Positions 411-38,684 of a stretch of DNA of 41,537 bases are shown here, piece by piece. Under the pieces are notes generated by a model. It saw nothing but the letters and a program-made list of their open reading frames with translations. It searched no databases and had not been told where the DNA came from. The DNA lies in NCBI GenBank assembly GCA_017442305.1, contig JAFRZY010000006.1, positions 1 to 41,537 on the forward strand. Reading direction: 5' to 3'. Position numbers and translations under genes: made by a program. Origin of the DNA: Bacilli bacterium (GTDB taxonomy: Bacteria; Bacillota_I; Bacilli_A; RF39; UBA660). Each line of letters begins with the position of its first letter. Position 1 is the first letter of the stretch.

Positions 411-439
411 ACCTATCCTACTTTCTACTATCTAGGATT

Positions 440-477
440 AGTATAATATACCCCCCCCGCTTGTCAACTGTGAATAA
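440..477 (-). promoter_or_regulatory. Phase-variable promoter of copy A (G8 in the spacer)
   Basis: On the minus strand: TTATTCACA (477-469, matches the DnaA-box consensus TTATNCACA), one base, the -35 TTGACA (467-462), a 16-nt spacer containing G8 (458-451), and the -10 TATACT (445-440). The short leader carries the ribosome binding site about 30 nt before the ATG. A homopolymeric G tract in a promoter spacer is a known phase-variation device (for example Neisseria porA). Confidence 0.85.
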
Positions 478-7215: not shown

Positions 7216-7245
7216 CTTTCCAAAATGAAGAGTCATTTTGGAAAG
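7216..7245. repeat. Perfect 12-bp inverted repeat after copy B
   Basis: CTTTCCAAAATG (7216-7227) and CATTTTGGAAAG (7234-7245) with a 6-nt loop. There is no T run on either side, so it is not a standard terminator. It sits in the 3' untranslated region of copy B, between the stop codon and the real terminator. It could stabilise the mRNA 3' end, bind a protein, or be a recombination scar. Confidence 0.75.
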
Positions 7246-19116: not shown

Positions 19117-19140
19117 AAAAAAAGAACTATTTCTAGTTCT
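19117..19140 (-). terminator. Terminator of the 361-aa membrane protein gene
   Basis: AGAACTA (19123-19129) pairs with TAGTTCT (19134-19140), then T7 on the minus strand. It lies 12 nt before the copy C promoter elements. Confidence 0.8.
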
Positions 19141-20927: not shown

Positions 20928-20955
20928 AAAAAAACTGTAGAGTTATCTACAGTTT
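20928..20955 (-). terminator. Terminator of surface copy D
   Basis: AAACTGTAGA (20932-20941) pairs with TCTACAGTTT (20946-20955), then T7 on the minus strand. The stem includes the stop codon. Confidence 0.85.
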
Positions 20956-22744
20956 AACCAACTAATTTGTACGGATTTTCTATTGTTCCTTCCCCTTCAA
21001 ATAATACATCAGCCTTAATATTAATTACTGGACGAACTCCGCCCTCTCTCACAACCGATGAGTAACTTGTTGAAATCTCGCCATTGCTAGATACATAATA
21101 CATAAAAAGTCCAGATACAGATGCTTCGCTACTTCCAGAAGTTAAAGGAACTTTATGGTAAGAAGGAGTCATAGTTAAGAAATCGTCATTAATAAATAAA
21201 TAAGCATTAGTTCCTGTACCGGCCATTACAGCTTCATCAGCTGTTACCAAGCCAATTGGATAAGTTAAATATCCATTACCTATTATATCTGTTACAGTAT
21301 ATTTATCATTTTTGGCTGCACACGTTAAAGCAGGATTGGCATTTAATCTATTGTACGCTTTAAAATAAGTAAAATTATTACTAACAGATGGATTAGCTTT
21401 ATCATTGCAGAAAATTGAGTCAGCTATATATTTACCGTATTTCTCTAGCAAACTTTTTTCATACCAAGTATCTACTACACCTTTAATTGTACTATCTGTT
21501 TCAACACCATTTACATCATATGTATATCCTGCATATTTTGCATCATAAATGCTTGAATTATATGCTATATCACCAATTGTTACTGTATGAGAAACTCCAT
21601 TTTCTACAAGTGATGTTCCATCATATATCATACGTATTGTTCCATCTCCATTAATTCGAACAATTCGCCAATATTTTAAATCATATGTCGGTATTAACTT
21701 TACTGTACACGCTTCTTCATCACCAGTTATTGATATACACGATTCTAACGACGCTAATCCTAATGCAACTATTTCTTCTTCCATACCACTTCCTGTATAA
21801 TATACAGTTTCTATATTTCTCGGTTTACAAGATGAATATGCACCACTTCCTAGACCAGCATCTTCACACATTTCTTGTGACTTGAACACAACATCACCGA
21901 ATACACTTAATTCTTCTATACAACTTTCATCTTCACCACAAGTTTCTAAGGACACTTCAGGTGAATATGGTTTCACTTTAGTTTTTCCAAACTCTACATA
22001 ATTATTTTTTATATCTCCCCTAAAGTAATATGAATCACCAAGATCATCTTGAGCTTTATATAAGCCATATTCTCCTTCTTGGGGATCAATAGTAAAATCT
22101 GGTGTTGTTGTATATAAATAATTTTTTTCTTCGGCGTCCTCTAAGACTAATGATGCTAAAGTTTCTCCTTGTGTATTTATATTTTGTCCAACACTTACGC
22201 TTATTTTCCCTGTAAATGTTTTGTTTTGTTCACTTATTGGAGCATCCTTATCTATCCACATTCTTAAATTAAACTTTTTTTCATCTTCTGTTGTCGCATC
22301 ACTTTTTCCAGCTAATGTTCCATAAGCTATTGTAAATGCTTGATAAGCCCCTTCTATTGTCGTTTCTGCAACTACATATTCATATAATTTCTTAGGAATA
22401 TTATCGTTTATTACTGCTTTTAATGTAGTTGATTTTAATGCAGACGTTTCATTTCCTATACTTTCTAGATTTATATGATAGTCAACAGTTGTTGTACAGT
22501 TATTTGTTACTGTAAATTCATACGGAACTAATTTCATTCCGTCTTCATCGCTCATCGGAAACTGGTTTGTTAAAGTTATATCATTTTTCTCACCACTTAT
22601 CGAAATATCTAAACACCCAGAACCTATTATGTTTTGTCCTGTTTGCGTTTTGGTTACTAACCAATATGCATATGTTACTCCGATTATTACTAGGAGTACT
22701 GCTACTATACTTATTATTGTAATTACTGTTTTTTTGTTCTTCAT
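20954..22744 (-). CDS. Phase-variable surface protein, family copy D
   Basis: A 596-aa member, start at the ATG at 22744. It is closest to copy B: both have the KKLYEYV, LASLxLxDAEExNYLYTTTPDF and FRGDxxxNYVxxG forms rather than the NPYKEGTLAY form of C, E and F. The variable middle is longer and cysteine-rich (ETCGEDESCIEEL, SQEMCEDAG, AYSSCKPRN, LESCISITGDEEACTV), suggesting tandem small disulfide modules. The C-terminal lectin-like domain runs from YWRIVRINGDGT to RPVINIKADVLFEG. It is placed between spoIVA and HU, which are neighbours in Bacillus. Role inferred: displayed surface protein under on/off control. Confidence 0.85.
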   Translation of the reverse strand: MKNKKTVITIISIVAVLLVIIGVTYAYWLVTKTQTGQNIIGSGCLDISISGEKNDITLTNQFPMSDEDGMKLVPYEFTVTNNCTTTVDYHINLESIGNETSALKSTTLKAVINDNIPKKLYEYVVAETTIEGAYQAFTIAYGTLAGKSDATTEDEKKFNLRMWIDKDAPISEQNKTFTGKISVSVGQNINTQGETLASLVLEDAEEKNYLYTTTPDFTIDPQEGEYGLYKAQDDLGDSYYFRGDIKNNYVEFGKTKVKPYSPEVSLETCGEDESCIEELSVFGDVVFKSQEMCEDAGLGSGAYSSCKPRNIETVYYTGSGMEEEIVALGLASLESCISITGDEEACTVKLIPTYDLKYWRIVRINGDGTIRMIYDGTSLVENGVSHTVTIGDIAYNSSIYDAKYAGYTYDVNGVETDSTIKGVVDTWYEKSLLEKYGKYIADSIFCNDKANPSVSNNFTYFKAYNRLNANPALTCAAKNDKYTVTDIIGNGYLTYPIGLVTADEAVMAGTGTNAYLFINDDFLTMTPSYHKVPLTSGSSEASVSGLFMYYVSSNGEISTSYSSVVREGGVRPVINIKADVLFEGEGTIENPYKLVG

Positions 22745-22938: not shown

Positions 22939-22962
22939 AAAAAAAACACTCGCATGAGTGTT
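22939..22962 (-). terminator. spoIVA terminator
   Basis: AACACTC (22945-22951) pairs with GAGTGTT (22956-22962), then T8 on the minus strand. It ends about 13 nt from the inverted repeat of the copy D promoter. Confidence 0.85.
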
Positions 22963-24439
22963 ATAAGACTATAGCAATTAAATTATTTGAGCCTTTATTA
23001 ACTATTTTAGTAACTGTTTGACTAAGTTTATATCTAGTATTATCTGGCATCATAGATAATTTAGCTTGAATTCCTTCCTGTACTATCTCTTCTAGACTAC
23101 GTCCAAATATTTCACTTTTCCAAATACTTGTTGGGTCAGTTTCATAGTCTTTCATTAAATAGTTAATTAATTCTTTACTTTGAAGTTCACTACCAATTAT
23201 AGGTTCAAAAGTACTTTGGACTTCTACTTTCATTAAATGAATACTTGATGCTACTGCTTTTAGTTTTACACCATATCTATTTCCTTGTTTTACTATTTCT
23301 GGTGTTTCTAATTTCATATCTTTAATTCCCGGATATACAATGCCATAACCGGTATTACGCGCCATTTTTAAAGCTGACTTAATACTATCTATTTCTTCTC
23401 TACCATCTTTATATGATGAGAAGATTTTTAAAAGTCCTGCCTTAGTCATAACATTTTCGCCTATAACAGCTTTTAAAGTTTCGTTATAAAGCTCATTAGA
23501 ACTTTCTAAATTAATAGTTACAACTCCAGTTGAAGCATCCAAATCACTAATATATGCTTTATTAATATATTCACTATTTTCAAAGTGTGAAATAATATAA
23601 TCTACATCTTTTACTTTTTCTACACTAATAACACTTTCTTTTATCTTTTCTAAATAGTGTCTTTTTATATCGTGCGTATTTGGAAGTACATGAACCCATT
23701 CTGGCATTTTAACTTTTATATCTAACACCGGGAATTCATATAACGCTTGTTTTAAAACTTCAATTAATTCTACTTCGTTCATATTTTCTACACTAATAGG
23801 AAGTACTGGTACATCATAAGTAGCTCTAAGTTCATCAGCAATCTCAACTGTTTTAGTATTAGTTGGATGAACTGTATTTAATACTACAATAAAAGGTTTT
23901 CCTATTTCTTTTAATTCAGTTATAACTTTTTCTTCTGCTTCTAAATAATTTTCTCGTTTTATTTCCCCAAAAGAACCATCAGTAGTTACTACTATACCTA
24001 TAGTAGCATGATCTTTAATAACTTTTTCGGTACCTATTTCTGCAGCTTCGACAAAAGGCACTGAATCTTCAAACCAAGGAGTTTTTACCATACGAGGATT
24101 TCCATCTTCGTCTTCATATCCATTAGAACCTGGAATGACATAACCAACACAATCTACTAGCTTTATATTAGCAGTAAACTCTTCAACAGAAATACTAGCT
24201 CCATTGGATGGGACAAACTTTGGTTCAGTAGTCATAATGGTCTTTCCTTGGGCACTTTGTGGAATTTCATCTAAACATCTTTTTTTCTCATATTCATCTT
24301 CAATATTAGGAACCACTATATTTTCAATAAATCTTTTTATAAATGTAGATTTACCAGTTCGTACAGCACCTACTACTCCTAGATAGATTTCACCATTTCC
24401 ACGTTTGGCAATTGATTCAATAATTTGATTTTTTTCCAT
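22961..24439 (-). CDS. spoIVA: Stage IV sporulation protein A
   Basis: SpoIVA is the ATPase that polymerises on the forespore membrane and forms the base layer of the spore coat. The Walker A motif is GAVRTGKST (residues 24-32), LVDCVGYVIPG is the switch region, and the C-terminus (RYKL...NKGSNNLIAIVL) matches the conserved membrane-localising end. The start is the ATG at 24439 (MEKNQ): GAGAGGG lies just upstream, inside the codons following an alternative ATG at 24454. The resulting 492 aa equals the Bacillus length. CATAAGGT about 25 nt upstream is a possible sigma-E -10, with any -35 falling inside the copy E terminator; this is weak. Presence of spoIVA implies the organism sporulates or did recently. 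Confidence 0.97.
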   Translation of the reverse strand: MEKNQIIESIAKRGNGEIYLGVVGAVRTGKSTFIKRFIENIVVPNIEDEYEKKRCLDEIPQSAQGKTIMTTEPKFVPSNGASISVEEFTANIKLVDCVGYVIPGSNGYEDEDGNPRMVKTPWFEDSVPFVEAAEIGTEKVIKDHATIGIVVTTDGSFGEIKRENYLEAEEKVITELKEIGKPFIVVLNTVHPTNTKTVEIADELRATYDVPVLPISVENMNEVELIEVLKQALYEFPVLDIKVKMPEWVHVLPNTHDIKRHYLEKIKESVISVEKVKDVDYIISHFENSEYINKAYISDLDASTGVVTINLESSNELYNETLKAVIGENVMTKAGLLKIFSSYKDGREEIDSIKSALKMARNTGYGIVYPGIKDMKLETPEIVKQGNRYGVKLKAVASSIHLMKVEVQSTFEPIIGSELQSKELINYLMKDYETDPTSIWKSEIFGRSLEEIVQEGIQAKLSMMPDNTRYKLSQTVTKIVNKGSNNLIAIVL

Positions 24440-24473
24440 TTTTACCCTCTCCATTTTTCTATTTAACCTTATG

Positions 24474-24501
24474 AAAAAAAGATGGATAATATTCCATCTT
24501 T
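24474..24501 (-). terminator. Terminator of surface copy E (duplicate of the spoVIF terminator)
   Basis: AAAGATGGA (24478-24486) pairs with TCCATCTTT (24493-24501), then T7 on the minus strand. The core GATGGATAATATTCCATC recurs exactly at 26633-26650 behind spoVIF. Confidence 0.85.
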
Positions 24502-26365
24502 AATTTAAAACTATTTCATAAGGCGAGTTTGTATCTATTCTACCATCTCCAGTAAATTTAACATCTGCTTTCAGATTGATAACTGGACGCGCCCCGACCA
24601 CGCCATAGGGGGAGGGTTCGTATTGGACGGAGCCGTTTTTGTCAATACTCCAGACCCACGCAACGTTTTTATTGAAAAAATCCGGAGTAGAAGTCCAATA
24701 CTCGCCTCCCGAATATAAGTAATGTGTATTATTGAAAGATGGTGCTCCTGCCATAATTGCTTCATCGGCTGTTAATAAACCAATTGGTCGCACATTTCCT
24801 TCTGCATCTGTTAACTTCCCATTCCCCAATTCTGTACTTACTGTATATCTATCATCCTTATTTGTACATGTTAATACTGGTGCTTTGTTTGCGCTTAATC
24901 TATAGTATGGAGCATAATATGTTCTACCAGATTCATCTGTTGTGACTTCACCTCTATCGTTACAAAAAATTGAATCTGCTATATATTTGCCATATGTTGT
25001 GTTTAGATGTTTATCATACCATGCATCTACTACTCCTTTGACTGTACTATTTGTTTCTGTTCCATCTACATCATATGTATATCCTGCATATTTTACATAG
25101 TCATAGTTTGTAGTATATGGTGTCATACCAATTACTGCTGTGTGTGCTACACCATTTACTACTTTTTCTGTTCCATCATAAATTAATCTGATAGATCCGT
25201 CTCCATTGATTCGGACTATTCTCCAGTACATTGGGGTTCCTGCTTTTACTTCAACCGTTTTTTCGCTTAATACTGTTTCATCATAAAAAGTTATTGTTGT
25301 ATCTGCGGCATATGTTCCAAATTGGACATAGTTGTTGGTTGGTGCTCCTCTAAAGTAATAACTAGTTCCCAAGTCATCTTGTGCCTTATAAAGTCCTGCA
25401 TCACTAGAGGCTGTTACTACACTAAATGCATTGCTTCCTTTTATAGTTTTTGCTGGTATATAATCTCCACTTGTTCCAAAATCAGTTATTTCATATAAAT
25501 AAGAACTATTATATGTTGAACTTTCGTTTTTTAATGTATATTTTCCACACACATTAGTTCCATTTCGACATTCTGTTAATGTTGCTTGTGTTAGTGTCCC
25601 TGATAATGTATAATATCCGGTTTCTTTATCAAATGTATATGATGTTCCGTACCAATAGTTGTTTGATGTTCCTACATTATTTGTTGTTGCTGTTACTGCA
25701 CTTGCATCTCCTTCTGTCCATTCTGCGCTTAAGCTTGCTATTGCATCTGCTCCGCCATAATTTGAAAGAATATCATAAGCTAATGTTCCTTCCTTATATG
25801 GATTTGTTATTCCTTGTCCTACTGTTACACTTATCTTACTTTGGAATGTTTTATTTTGTTCACTTATTGGAGCATTTGCATCTATCCAGATTCGTAATTT
25901 ATACGTTACTGATGCGTTTTCTGTATCCTTTGCAGCTAGTGTTCCATATAAAATCATATTTGATTCGTATGCTCCTGAAACTGTTGGTTCTGTATTTCCA
26001 CCAGCAGTTAGTAGTTTTATTTCATCGTTTAACGCAACTTTAATAGCGCTGGCTTTGATTGCGTTAGTTGAATCCCCAATACTTTCAAGATTAACTTGAT
26101 AATCTACTGAGGTATTACAATTATTTGTTACTGTAAATTCGTATGGTGTTAGTTTCATTCCATCTTCATCGCTTAACGGAAATTGATCTTGTAGTTCAAT
26201 ATCATTCTTCTCACCAGTTAACGAGATGTCTAAACAACCGGAACTAATTAAGTTATGGCCTGTTTGTGTTTTTGTTAATAGCCAATAAGCATATGTTACT
26301 CCAATTATTACTAGGAGTACTGCTACTATGCTAGTTATTGTGATTACTATTTTTTTATTCTTCAT
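24500..26365 (-). CDS. Phase-variable surface protein, family copy E
   Basis: A 621-aa member, start at the ATG at 26365. It has the shared N-terminus, the NPYKEGTLAYDILSNYGGAD subtype join, and then an extra module of about 80 residues found also in copy F (YGTSYTFDKETGYYTLSG ... ECRNGTNVCGKYTL ... YEITDFG). The middle between FRGAPTNNYVQFG and YWRIVRINGDGS lacks the cysteine-pair module and instead has a charged beta-rich stretch (VLSEKTVEVKAGTPM). The lectin-like domain ends GARPVINLKADVKFTG. The codons for the loop before that (about 24590-24670) are strikingly GC-rich compared with the rest. Its promoter is the only one with an optimal 17-nt spacer, so this copy may be the one switched on. 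Confidence 0.85.
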   Translation of the reverse strand: MKNKKIVITITSIVAVLLVIIGVTYAYWLLTKTQTGHNLISSGCLDISLTGEKNDIELQDQFPLSDEDGMKLTPYEFTVTNNCNTSVDYQVNLESIGDSTNAIKASAIKVALNDEIKLLTAGGNTEPTVSGAYESNMILYGTLAAKDTENASVTYKLRIWIDANAPISEQNKTFQSKISVTVGQGITNPYKEGTLAYDILSNYGGADAIASLSAEWTEGDASAVTATTNNVGTSNNYWYGTSYTFDKETGYYTLSGTLTQATLTECRNGTNVCGKYTLKNESSTYNSSYLYEITDFGTSGDYIPAKTIKGSNAFSVVTASSDAGLYKAQDDLGTSYYFRGAPTNNYVQFGTYAADTTITFYDETVLSEKTVEVKAGTPMYWRIVRINGDGSIRLIYDGTEKVVNGVAHTAVIGMTPYTTNYDYVKYAGYTYDVDGTETNSTVKGVVDAWYDKHLNTTYGKYIADSIFCNDRGEVTTDESGRTYYAPYYRLSANKAPVLTCTNKDDRYTVSTELGNGKLTDAEGNVRPIGLLTADEAIMAGAPSFNNTHYLYSGGEYWTSTPDFFNKNVAWVWSIDKNGSVQYEPSPYGVVGARPVINLKADVKFTGDGRIDTNSPYEIVLN

Positions 26366-26394
26366 ACCTATCCTACTTTCTACTATCTAGGATT

Positions 26395-26433
26395 AGTATA
26401 ATATACCCCCCCCCTTCTGTCAACTGTGGATAA
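26395..26433 (-). promoter_or_regulatory. Phase-variable promoter of copy E (G9, optimal spacer)
   Basis: TTATCCACA (26433-26425, DnaA-box consensus), TTGACA (26423-26418), 17-nt spacer with G9 (26414-26406), TATACT (26400-26395). Short-type leader, identical to copy A. Seventeen nt is the sigma-A optimum, so this is the predicted ON state. Confidence 0.85.
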
Positions 26434-26445
26434 TTATTTTTTCTG

Positions 26446-26454
26446 TGTTACAAT
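26446..26454 (+). promoter_or_regulatory. Promoter of small RNA 2
   Basis: Extended -10 TGTTACAAT, followed by GAATATG as in small RNA 1. The -35 is poor (TGGATA at 16 nt) and overlaps the DnaA-box-like site of the divergent copy E promoter, so the two promoters may influence each other. Confidence 0.5.
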
Positions 26455-26460
26455 GAATAT

Positions 26461-26567
26461 GTCAAGGAAACTTACATATATTAAAAAGGGAACATTCAGT
26501 TTTGGTACGTTGAATGTCCACCGTATTTTGGGGTAGACATTTAAGCTATGCTTAGATGTCTTTTTTT
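26461..26567 (+). ncRNA. Small RNA, family member 2
   Basis: Homolog of the minus-strand element at 1414-1527. The start GTCAAGGAAACTT is followed by GGGA, hairpin ACATTCAG (26492-26499) with TTGAATGT (26510-26517), then GTCCACC that can pair with GGTAGAC, and a terminator GACATTTAAGC (26536-26546)/GCTTAGATGTC (26550-26560) with T7. The middle segment can pair either left or right, so the RNA has two alternative folds like an attenuator, yet no plus-strand gene follows closely. It sits back to back with the copy E promoter. Function unknown; an RNA regulator of the surface family is one idea. Confidence 0.6.
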
Positions 26568-26627
26568 ATTACCATTATCATAATGATTATAAGTATTATT
26601 TTGTAAAAATTTAAAAATTGACAAATT

Positions 26628-26651
26628 AAAAAGATGGATAATATTCCATCT
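26628..26651 (-). terminator. spoVIF terminator
   Basis: AGATGGA (26632-26638) pairs with TCCATCT (26645-26651), then T5 on the minus strand. The same hairpin is found after copy E. Confidence 0.75.
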
Positions 26652-26895
26652 ATTTAAACATTTTATCTACACCTTTAGGAACTTCATCATTTACTATTTT
26701 ACCAACTATTTTATCTTCCAGATCTTTACTTACTTTTTTTCCAGTCATTTTACTTAAAGTACCAATTACTTCTCTTAAAGTTTTTTCGTCCTTCATGTTA
26801 CCATTTTGCAATTTCTCAGCAAGAGATACAATTGTATTTTTATCAACCTTTGTTTTCTTTTCCACTTTTTTAAAAAAGTCATCTTTAAAATCCAT
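26650..26895 (-). CDS. spoVIF: Stage VI sporulation protein F
   Basis: An 81-aa protein matching SpoVIF (Bacillus YjcC), which is needed for late spore coat assembly. DFFKKVEKKTKV...DTIVSLAEKLQ-type start, NMKDEKTLREVIGTLSKM and GKKVSKDLEDKIVGKIVND fit the family pattern (FFKNIEKKTGV, NFKDEETVRKV in Bacillus) over the whole length. The start is the ATG at 26895, with AGGAGG 5 nt upstream; the longer open frame to 26961 lacks a ribosome binding site and overlaps the upstream gene. A mother-cell-type -10 (CATATAATA) lies just upstream. It precedes copy E and spoIVA on the same strand, forming a small sporulation neighbourhood. Confidence 0.85.
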   Translation of the reverse strand: MDFKDDFFKKVEKKTKVDKNTIVSLAEKLQNGNMKDEKTLREVIGTLSKMTGKKVSKDLEDKIVGKIVNDEVPKGVDKMFK

Positions 26896-26912
26896 GAAAA
26901 ACCTCCTACAAA

Positions 26913-26939
26913 TATTATATGTAGAAGGTTCTTGGGTGT
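26913..26939 (-). promoter_or_regulatory. Possible sigma-K/sigma-E promoter of spoVIF
   Basis: CATATAATA (26921-26913) fits the sigma-K -10 CATANNNTA, with AC 16 nt upstream (26939-26938) as the -35 core. It is also close to sigma-E CATACANT. Short motifs, so tentative. Confidence 0.4.
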
Positions 26940-27151
26940 TAATCTTCAAAAAATAAATCATCAGGTTTTAAATCAAATATTTTTGCAATTCTTTTTGCTA
27001 AATCATAATAGAGATTACGATTACCATTTTCTAATTGCCAATAATACGCTTTACAAATATCTAATTTATCTGCCATATCCTGATAAGTATAATTATTTTT
27101 CTCTCTAATAGCTTTTAGTTTTTCTAAAGGTTTTTTTACTTTTTTTATCAT
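26939..27151 (-). CDS. XRE-family HTH regulator, 70 aa
   Basis: A single Cro/CI-type helix-turn-helix domain: LKAIREKNNYTYQDMADKLDICKAYYWQLENGNRNLYYDLAKRIAKIF has the five-helix XRE pattern with the recognition helix around CKAYYWQLENG. It has no partner domain. GGAGGGG precedes the ATG. It is expressed from a consensus promoter in the 117-bp region it shares with the divergent XRE gene, and lies upstream of spoVIF. Repression of its own promoter region is the usual role. Control of sporulation or of the surface genes is possible but not shown. Confidence 0.85.
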   Translation of the reverse strand: MIKKVKKPLEKLKAIREKNNYTYQDMADKLDICKAYYWQLENGNRNLYYDLAKRIAKIFDLKPDDLFFED

Positions 27152-38614: not shown

Positions 38615-38644
38615 ATACTATCCTACTTTCTATTATCTAGGATT

Positions 38645-38684
38645 AGTATAATATACCCCCCCCCCGCCTGTCAACTGTGGATAG
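38645..38684 (-). promoter_or_regulatory. Phase-variable promoter of copy F (G10 in the spacer)
   Basis: CTATCCACA (38684-38676, one mismatch to the DnaA box), TTGACA (38674-38669), 18-nt spacer with G10 (38665-38656), TATACT (38650-38645). Short-type leader as in A and E. Confidence 0.85.

Follow-up and report, generated by a model that had tools for sequence, protein, structure and literature searches.

Copy E, a gene for a probable exported or surface protein, lies between spoVIF and spoIVA in the 41,537-nt stretch of DNA analysed here (the window), and is bounded by the same terminator-like hairpin on both sides. We consider it probable that copy E, together with the small RNA 2 upstream of it, is an insertion of a dispersed cassette at the spoVIF–spoIVA terminator, and that the whole terminator was duplicated. 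The data suggest that a duplicated terminator is the scar of cassette landing, with one independent parallel, found between serS and miaB. If this is correct, a large switchable family of surface-protein genes can spread in a compact genome without harm to its neighbours, and landing at a terminator with its duplication keeps the upstream, new and downstream genes apart. Should it be true in more genomes, the duplicated terminator would serve as a scar for recognising such insertions, placing them in time order and tracing their mechanism. It would also link the scattering of these genes to a family from uncultured gut Bacilli that is related to a retroelement and probably phase-variable.

The block and its flanking repeat

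The genes on either side of the block were named correctly in the preliminary description. The upstream neighbour (26650..26961, minus strand) matches the spoVIF profile PF14069 with 73.7 bits (cut-off 27), and the corresponding NCBIfam equivalog below its cut-off (74.5 of 130). The downstream neighbour (22961..24454, minus strand) matches the spoIVA profile TIGR02836 with 647 bits (cut-off 460). Between them, copy E (24500..26365, minus strand) is the sole long ORF of the block. It codes for 621 amino acids with an N-terminal signal-anchor-like segment, and belongs to a dispersed family of paralogs. Its promoter (26395..26423, minus strand) has the form TTGACA-17-TATACT with a tract of nine G inside the spacer, and upstream of this is small RNA 2 (26446..26567), which is encoded on the plus strand and has an extended −10 element (TGTTACAAT), hairpins, and a terminator at 26535–26561.

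No Pfam or NCBIfam family matches copy E at an E value of 0.01, and no solved structure matches it in sequence. The predicted fold is of low confidence (mean pLDDT 65.2). In this low-confidence model, the N-terminal part matches, among others, the TasA fibre 8aur (Z 6.3, 121 residues, 3.3 Å), while residues 193–621 match the start of the Thomasclavelia ramosa IgA peptidase 9qa6 (Z 11.3, 200 residues, 3.6 Å). No C-type lectin title occurs among the structure matches listed for the model, an absence that excludes nothing.

The hairpin GATGGATAATATTCCATC had been described as occurring at both edges of the block, and it is indeed found at 24481–24498 and 26633–26650. The full exact repeat is longer, consisting of the 24 bp AAAAAGATGGATAATATTCCATCT at 24476–24499 and 26628–26651, with a spacing of 2152 bp, so that the insert is flanked by a direct repeat. 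The upstream copy (26628..26651, minus strand) forms the terminator-like hairpin of spoVIF and overlaps its TAG stop codon. The downstream copy (24476..24499, minus strand) forms that of copy E; it abuts the TAA stop and continues into the spoIVA leader. Both are terminator-like on the minus strand, which encodes spoVIF, copy E and spoIVA, and both have the features of an intrinsic terminator, namely a G–C stem-loop behind a stop codon (seven pairs in the right copy, nine in the left, with a 6-nt loop) and a T-rich tail. In segments of 81 nt around the two copies, folding is better than in shuffled sequence, with z values of −3.0 (right) and −4.7 (left). The hairpins would thus be expected, judging from their sequence, to end transcription.

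The repeat is a real feature rather than a product of chance. There is no third site for GATGGATAATATTCCATC in the window at up to three mismatches, where 0.02 matches would be expected. The preliminary description had recognised that the hairpin could be a general terminator, common throughout the genome. This idea can be discarded: in the assembly of this genome (656,764 bases, about 65% complete) the 24-bp repeat occurs at two places at up to two mismatches, and these are the two edges of the block. Among 290 relatives in the family there are two single matches to the hairpin, each with two mismatches.

The left terminator is also bracketed by a perfect 10-bp inverted repeat, CCTTATGAAA and TTTCATAAGG, at 24467–24476 and 24514–24523. 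One arm is in the spoIVA leader, and copy E carries the other in its 3′ end. Both arms look native, and this arrangement may be due to chance.

Comparison with relatives and with other cassettes

The preliminary description proposed looking for relatives in which spoVIF is followed by a single terminator and then spoIVA. We surveyed 120 loci, 40 around spoVIF and 80 around spoIVA, all from relatives outside the genus of this genome. Of these, 36 distinct loci have the two genes on one strand within the sequence examined, spoVIF being upstream. The two genes are adjacent in eight of these (L038, L042, L046, L050, L054, L055, L070 and L133), with 46–95 nt between matched ends. The other 28 have 0.2–4.8 kb of other sequence between them, often containing XRE-type regulators, and no copy-E-like gene is listed in the interval at any of the 36 loci. 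A single hairpin followed by a T-run was seen by eye in five of the eight adjacent loci. None of these is the repeat hairpin, and no terminator sequence at this site is common to different genera. In L042 the T-run continues into TTTTTCATAAG, as it does in the repeat copy on the side of copy E, a likeness that favours insertion.

In a quick tree of spoIVA (92 rows), L074 and L077 fall together with the window (SH-aLRT 97). L074 is the nearest relative by spoIVA (86%) and has rpmA directly upstream of spoIVA, while in L077 the marker genes are absent within 5.2 kb. Seven of the eight adjacent cases could be placed in the tree, on distant branches; L070 was too short. The adjacency of spoVIF and spoIVA is therefore probably old, as far as these sequences indicate. 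Because the nearest relative lacks synteny, there is no close empty site for copy E. The proposed arrangement does exist in relatives, although these are distant and have different terminator sequences.

The earlier proposal, in which the block came in between the two sporulation genes and either duplicated the terminator or recombined through it, is accordingly upheld in part, and the data fit both variants alike. It is favoured by the eight adjacent loci and by the parallel at serS–miaB, for which two genomes have an empty site. Against it, 28 of the 36 loci carry other sequence, the nearest relative has rpmA at this position, and the adjacent cases are distant. We regard entry specifically between spoVIF and spoIVA as likely. 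Insertion is also supported by another cassette, copy D, which likewise lies between two genes, spoIVA and an HU gene, that 30 of 69 relatives have no more than 320 nt apart. Copy D is at 20954–22744 of the window, and a duplicated terminator was not found there.

Terminators were compared in the 12 cassettes for which both edges are visible, one of them an 80-aa remnant, by aligning the terminator upstream of each cassette with the one behind its stop codon. For copies E and F the upstream segments had to be set by hand, since neighbour and promoter are separated by other sequence. Copy E (score 24.0) and the serS–miaB cassette (26.0) are the two of the 12 in which upstream and downstream terminators resemble each other, while none of the 132 cross pairs scores above 12.5. 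The permutation p value is 0.0023, or 0.032 without copy E and 0.36 without both. In a wider comparison of 18 upstream with 13 downstream segments (234 pairs, including the hand-placed E and F), serS–miaB ranks first and copy E second, and the third pair scores 16.0. Terminator duplication as a rule for all cassettes is rejected: 10 of the 12 have no duplicate, and this, together with the loss of signal when copy E and serS–miaB are removed, counts against the insertion reading.

The second case of a duplicated terminator is the cassette at C29:6844–8949, on another contig, between serS and miaB. Its two terminator copies are identical in 35 of 40 alignment columns. In two genomes of another genus (G020 and G159), 68 nt separate the matched ends of serS and miaB, and this gap contains a single terminator. 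Over 22 nt, the right flank of this terminator, TCTTCTTTTTTTGTTATAATAC, is identical to the copy next to miaB. For the copy next to serS the stem is retained and the alignment is weak (score 12.0), a poor likeness that argues against insertion. On this sequence evidence G020 and G159 provide an empty-site comparison for serS–miaB, of a kind that the spoVIF–spoIVA site lacks. Two other relatives with serS near miaB have gaps of 478 and 964 nt, and the flanks examined at the remaining loci (up to 1.5 kb) contained no recognisable serS. Copy E may be the younger of the two cases, since its two terminator copies are still identical. An empty site was also sought for cassette F, but at none of the three loci tested was the ABC gene found next to the U32 gene.

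Origin of the duplicated terminator

We envisage that the cassette would land where spoVIF and spoIVA were separated by an intrinsic terminator, and that this terminator would be duplicated, one copy staying behind spoVIF and the other ending copy E. As a result spoVIF, copy E and spoIVA would remain separate transcription units. The repeat would arise at insertion, in the manner of a target-site duplication, either by fill-in of a staggered break or by template switching at the extruded hairpin, neither of which would need a special enzyme.

This has features in common with several known systems and is identical to none of them. Target-site duplications made by insertion sequences and MITEs are usually from a few to about 14 bp long. 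They resemble our cases in the direct repeat of the target on both sides and, for serS–miaB, in the empty site in relatives. Because the repeat is palindromic, the ends of the copy E block can also be read as inverted repeats, and they match each other in inverted orientation solely through the repeat itself. The differences are that the repeat, at 24 to about 40 bp, is a whole terminator, and that no transposase was seen in the block, where the profile search covered the one long ORF. Tn7 inserts at attTn7, at the terminator downstream of a housekeeping gene, using dedicated transposition proteins and making a 5-bp duplication. The terminator site is alike, while the 5-bp duplication and the dedicated proteins set Tn7 apart. 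Group IIC (bacterial class C) introns also use the terminator as insertion site, being inserted directly after rho-independent terminators and so sparing genes, and the available text on them mentions no duplicated terminator (PMC8919778). Such an insert should contain an intron RNA and encode a reverse transcriptase. The block has no reverse transcriptase ORF, no Rfam family reaches its gathering score anywhere in the window, and a permissive Rfam scan of 26380–26680 gave weak matches below the cut-off only. A literature search, judged by titles, found none on cassettes with duplicated terminators.

The identity of the two copies could also be explained by gene conversion, in which the cassette was inserted by some other route and a copy of the spoVIF terminator was later transferred to the 3′ terminus of copy E, or in the opposite direction. 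Direct repeats in the same orientation 2.15 kb apart can convert and so stay identical. We nevertheless think this unlikely: the serS–miaB pair has drifted to 35 of 40 columns, which implies no steady homogenisation there, and two independent events would be required, each between the edges of one cassette.

A flanking direct repeat would be produced without a transposase by Campbell-type integration, that is, if a circle carrying the cassette and the same hairpin had recombined at the spoVIF terminator. In keeping with this, copy E and the cassette at C29:42884 have small RNA and promoter in common as one stretch. It is however quite improbable, because no donor with the repeat hairpin is present in the assembly of this genome (about 65% complete), and the hairpin at serS–miaB is different, so that every circle would need to carry its target's own terminator.

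Two simple AT-rich terminators of independent origin might have converged. We catalogued 34 terminator-like sites in about 100 kb of sequence from this genome, mostly around cassettes; the right repeat copy (26632–26651) was left out because of its short T-run. The few high-scoring pairs are small-RNA homologues and one pair of cassettes, cassette C and a cassette near 54 kb of the same contig (C5). These two have an identical 24-nt terminator upstream (19123–19140 and C5:54803–54818), the 16-nt core of which recurs with one mismatch at C7:6880, where there is no cassette. Such a core, occurring three times in this genome at up to one mismatch, indicates that simple terminators can recur without insertion, and convergence is possible for that pair. 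The two near matches to the repeat hairpin among the 290 relatives point the same way. For copy E, however, convergence is very improbable: 24 bases including the loop are identical, 0.02 matches are expected in the window even at three mismatches, and against the copy E terminator the best other catalogued site scores 15.0, compared to 24.0 for that of spoVIF.

Finally, contigs of this genome frequently break off within these paralogs, and a cassette might have been joined at the wrong place during assembly; this is the least credible explanation, given that copy E is complete and lies with its two flanks on one contig of 128 kb, that spoVIF and spoIVA are neighbours in other genera, and that the second case is on another contig and has its own empty site.

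The cassette family, its small RNA and the retroelement

Paralogs of copy E give 38 matching stretches in this genome; one gene can account for several, and a few matches are weak. In the regions read there are 16 N-termini of the family, four of them cut by contig ends and one the 80-aa remnant. All 16 are preceded by a promoter of the form TTGACA – G8 to G10 – TATACT. The tract is G8 in 14 of them, G9 in copy E and G10 in copy F, and the corresponding spacers are 16, 17 and 18 nt, with 15 in the remnant. A stricter pattern has 10 matches in this genome (window 437–467, 26392–26423 and 38642–38674, plus seven on other contigs) and none in the 290 relatives. By analogy with homopolymer promoters described elsewhere, slippage in the G tract would be expected to alter the spacer and hence expression, and the poly-G promoters probably serve for phase variation.

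The preliminary description counted small RNA 2 as part of the inserted block, and this holds to a limited extent. The stretch of small RNA plus promoter (26366..26594, minus strand) aligns as a single unit with the cassette at C29:42664–42991, so small RNA and cassette have travelled together at least once. Elsewhere the small RNA is an independent element. It is a dispersed structured RNA found across the family, in 166 of 291 genomes including this one, with up to two candidates scored per genome. An alignment of thirty copies has 27 consensus pairs, five of which are changed on both sides, and the terminator stem shows compensatory changes. Further copies are at 1407–1541 of the window (minus strand), L222:1161–1312 (minus) and L219:4894–4975 (plus). 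The small RNA was rejected as the mover of the cassettes: 29 loci in relatives (L159–L187, with flanks of up to 1.5 kb) contain no poly-G promoter or copy-E-like N-terminus by motif, the lone motif match (L168) being a lactate-dehydrogenase-like start.

The contig carrying copy E also contains a diversity-generating retroelement (C5:124710–127881; L287:5211–8382). Reverse transcriptase, Avd and template repeat are found together, in the order family-member target, template repeat, MutS-domain-I-like ORF, bAvd, reverse transcriptase. RVT_1 scores 78 bits and bAvd 40.7 (cut-off 40), while DivGenRetAVD matches with an E value of 1.4e-10, yet at 41.4 bits is under its cut-off of 80. Of the 38 template adenines, 16 are changed in the variable repeat of the adjacent target, as are 2 of the 78 other positions; the target's reading frame is shifted inside this repeat in the present assembly. 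For a copy on contig C8 the figures are 17 of 38 and 8 of 78. These adenine-biased differences imply that the family includes targets of the retroelement. Copy E has a GC-rich patch (24583..24696, minus strand; GC 0.54 compared to 0.34 in the rest of the gene) at the position of the target's variable repeat. Its bias is weak, with 20 of 35 adenines and 27 of 75 other positions differing (p 0.03, uncorrected, for one of eight copies tested), and copies B, D and F have no significant bias.

Retroelements with remote and multiple targets are known (PMC4891356, PMC10907252). The present contig is similar in having reverse transcriptase, bAvd, template repeat and an adjacent target from the protein family of copy E. 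It differs in that 16 N-termini with poly-G promoters are scattered here, and in that the patch in copy E is only weakly tied to the template. The prototype retroelement needs a sequence of up to 35 bp with a hairpin, downstream of its variable repeat, and its authors likewise draw a comparison with terminators (PMC3240598). It might be imagined that a machinery based on reverse transcriptase recognises terminator hairpins, in the way of group IIC introns and retroelement homing, and spreads the cassettes while copying the terminator as they insert. A single retroelement would then both diversify and multiply its targets, and every new copy would receive a 3′ hairpin to stop transcription. We give this a very small probability. 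The hairpin of copy E begins about 84 nt past the variable patch, further away than in the prototype, which makes spread driven by the retroelement a bold and unproven idea.

Copy B (hairpin at 7220–7241) and the adjacent target of the retroelement (about L287:7435–7465) each have a hairpin behind the stop codon with the same ACTCTT loop, and the two hairpins differ by one compensating base-pair change.
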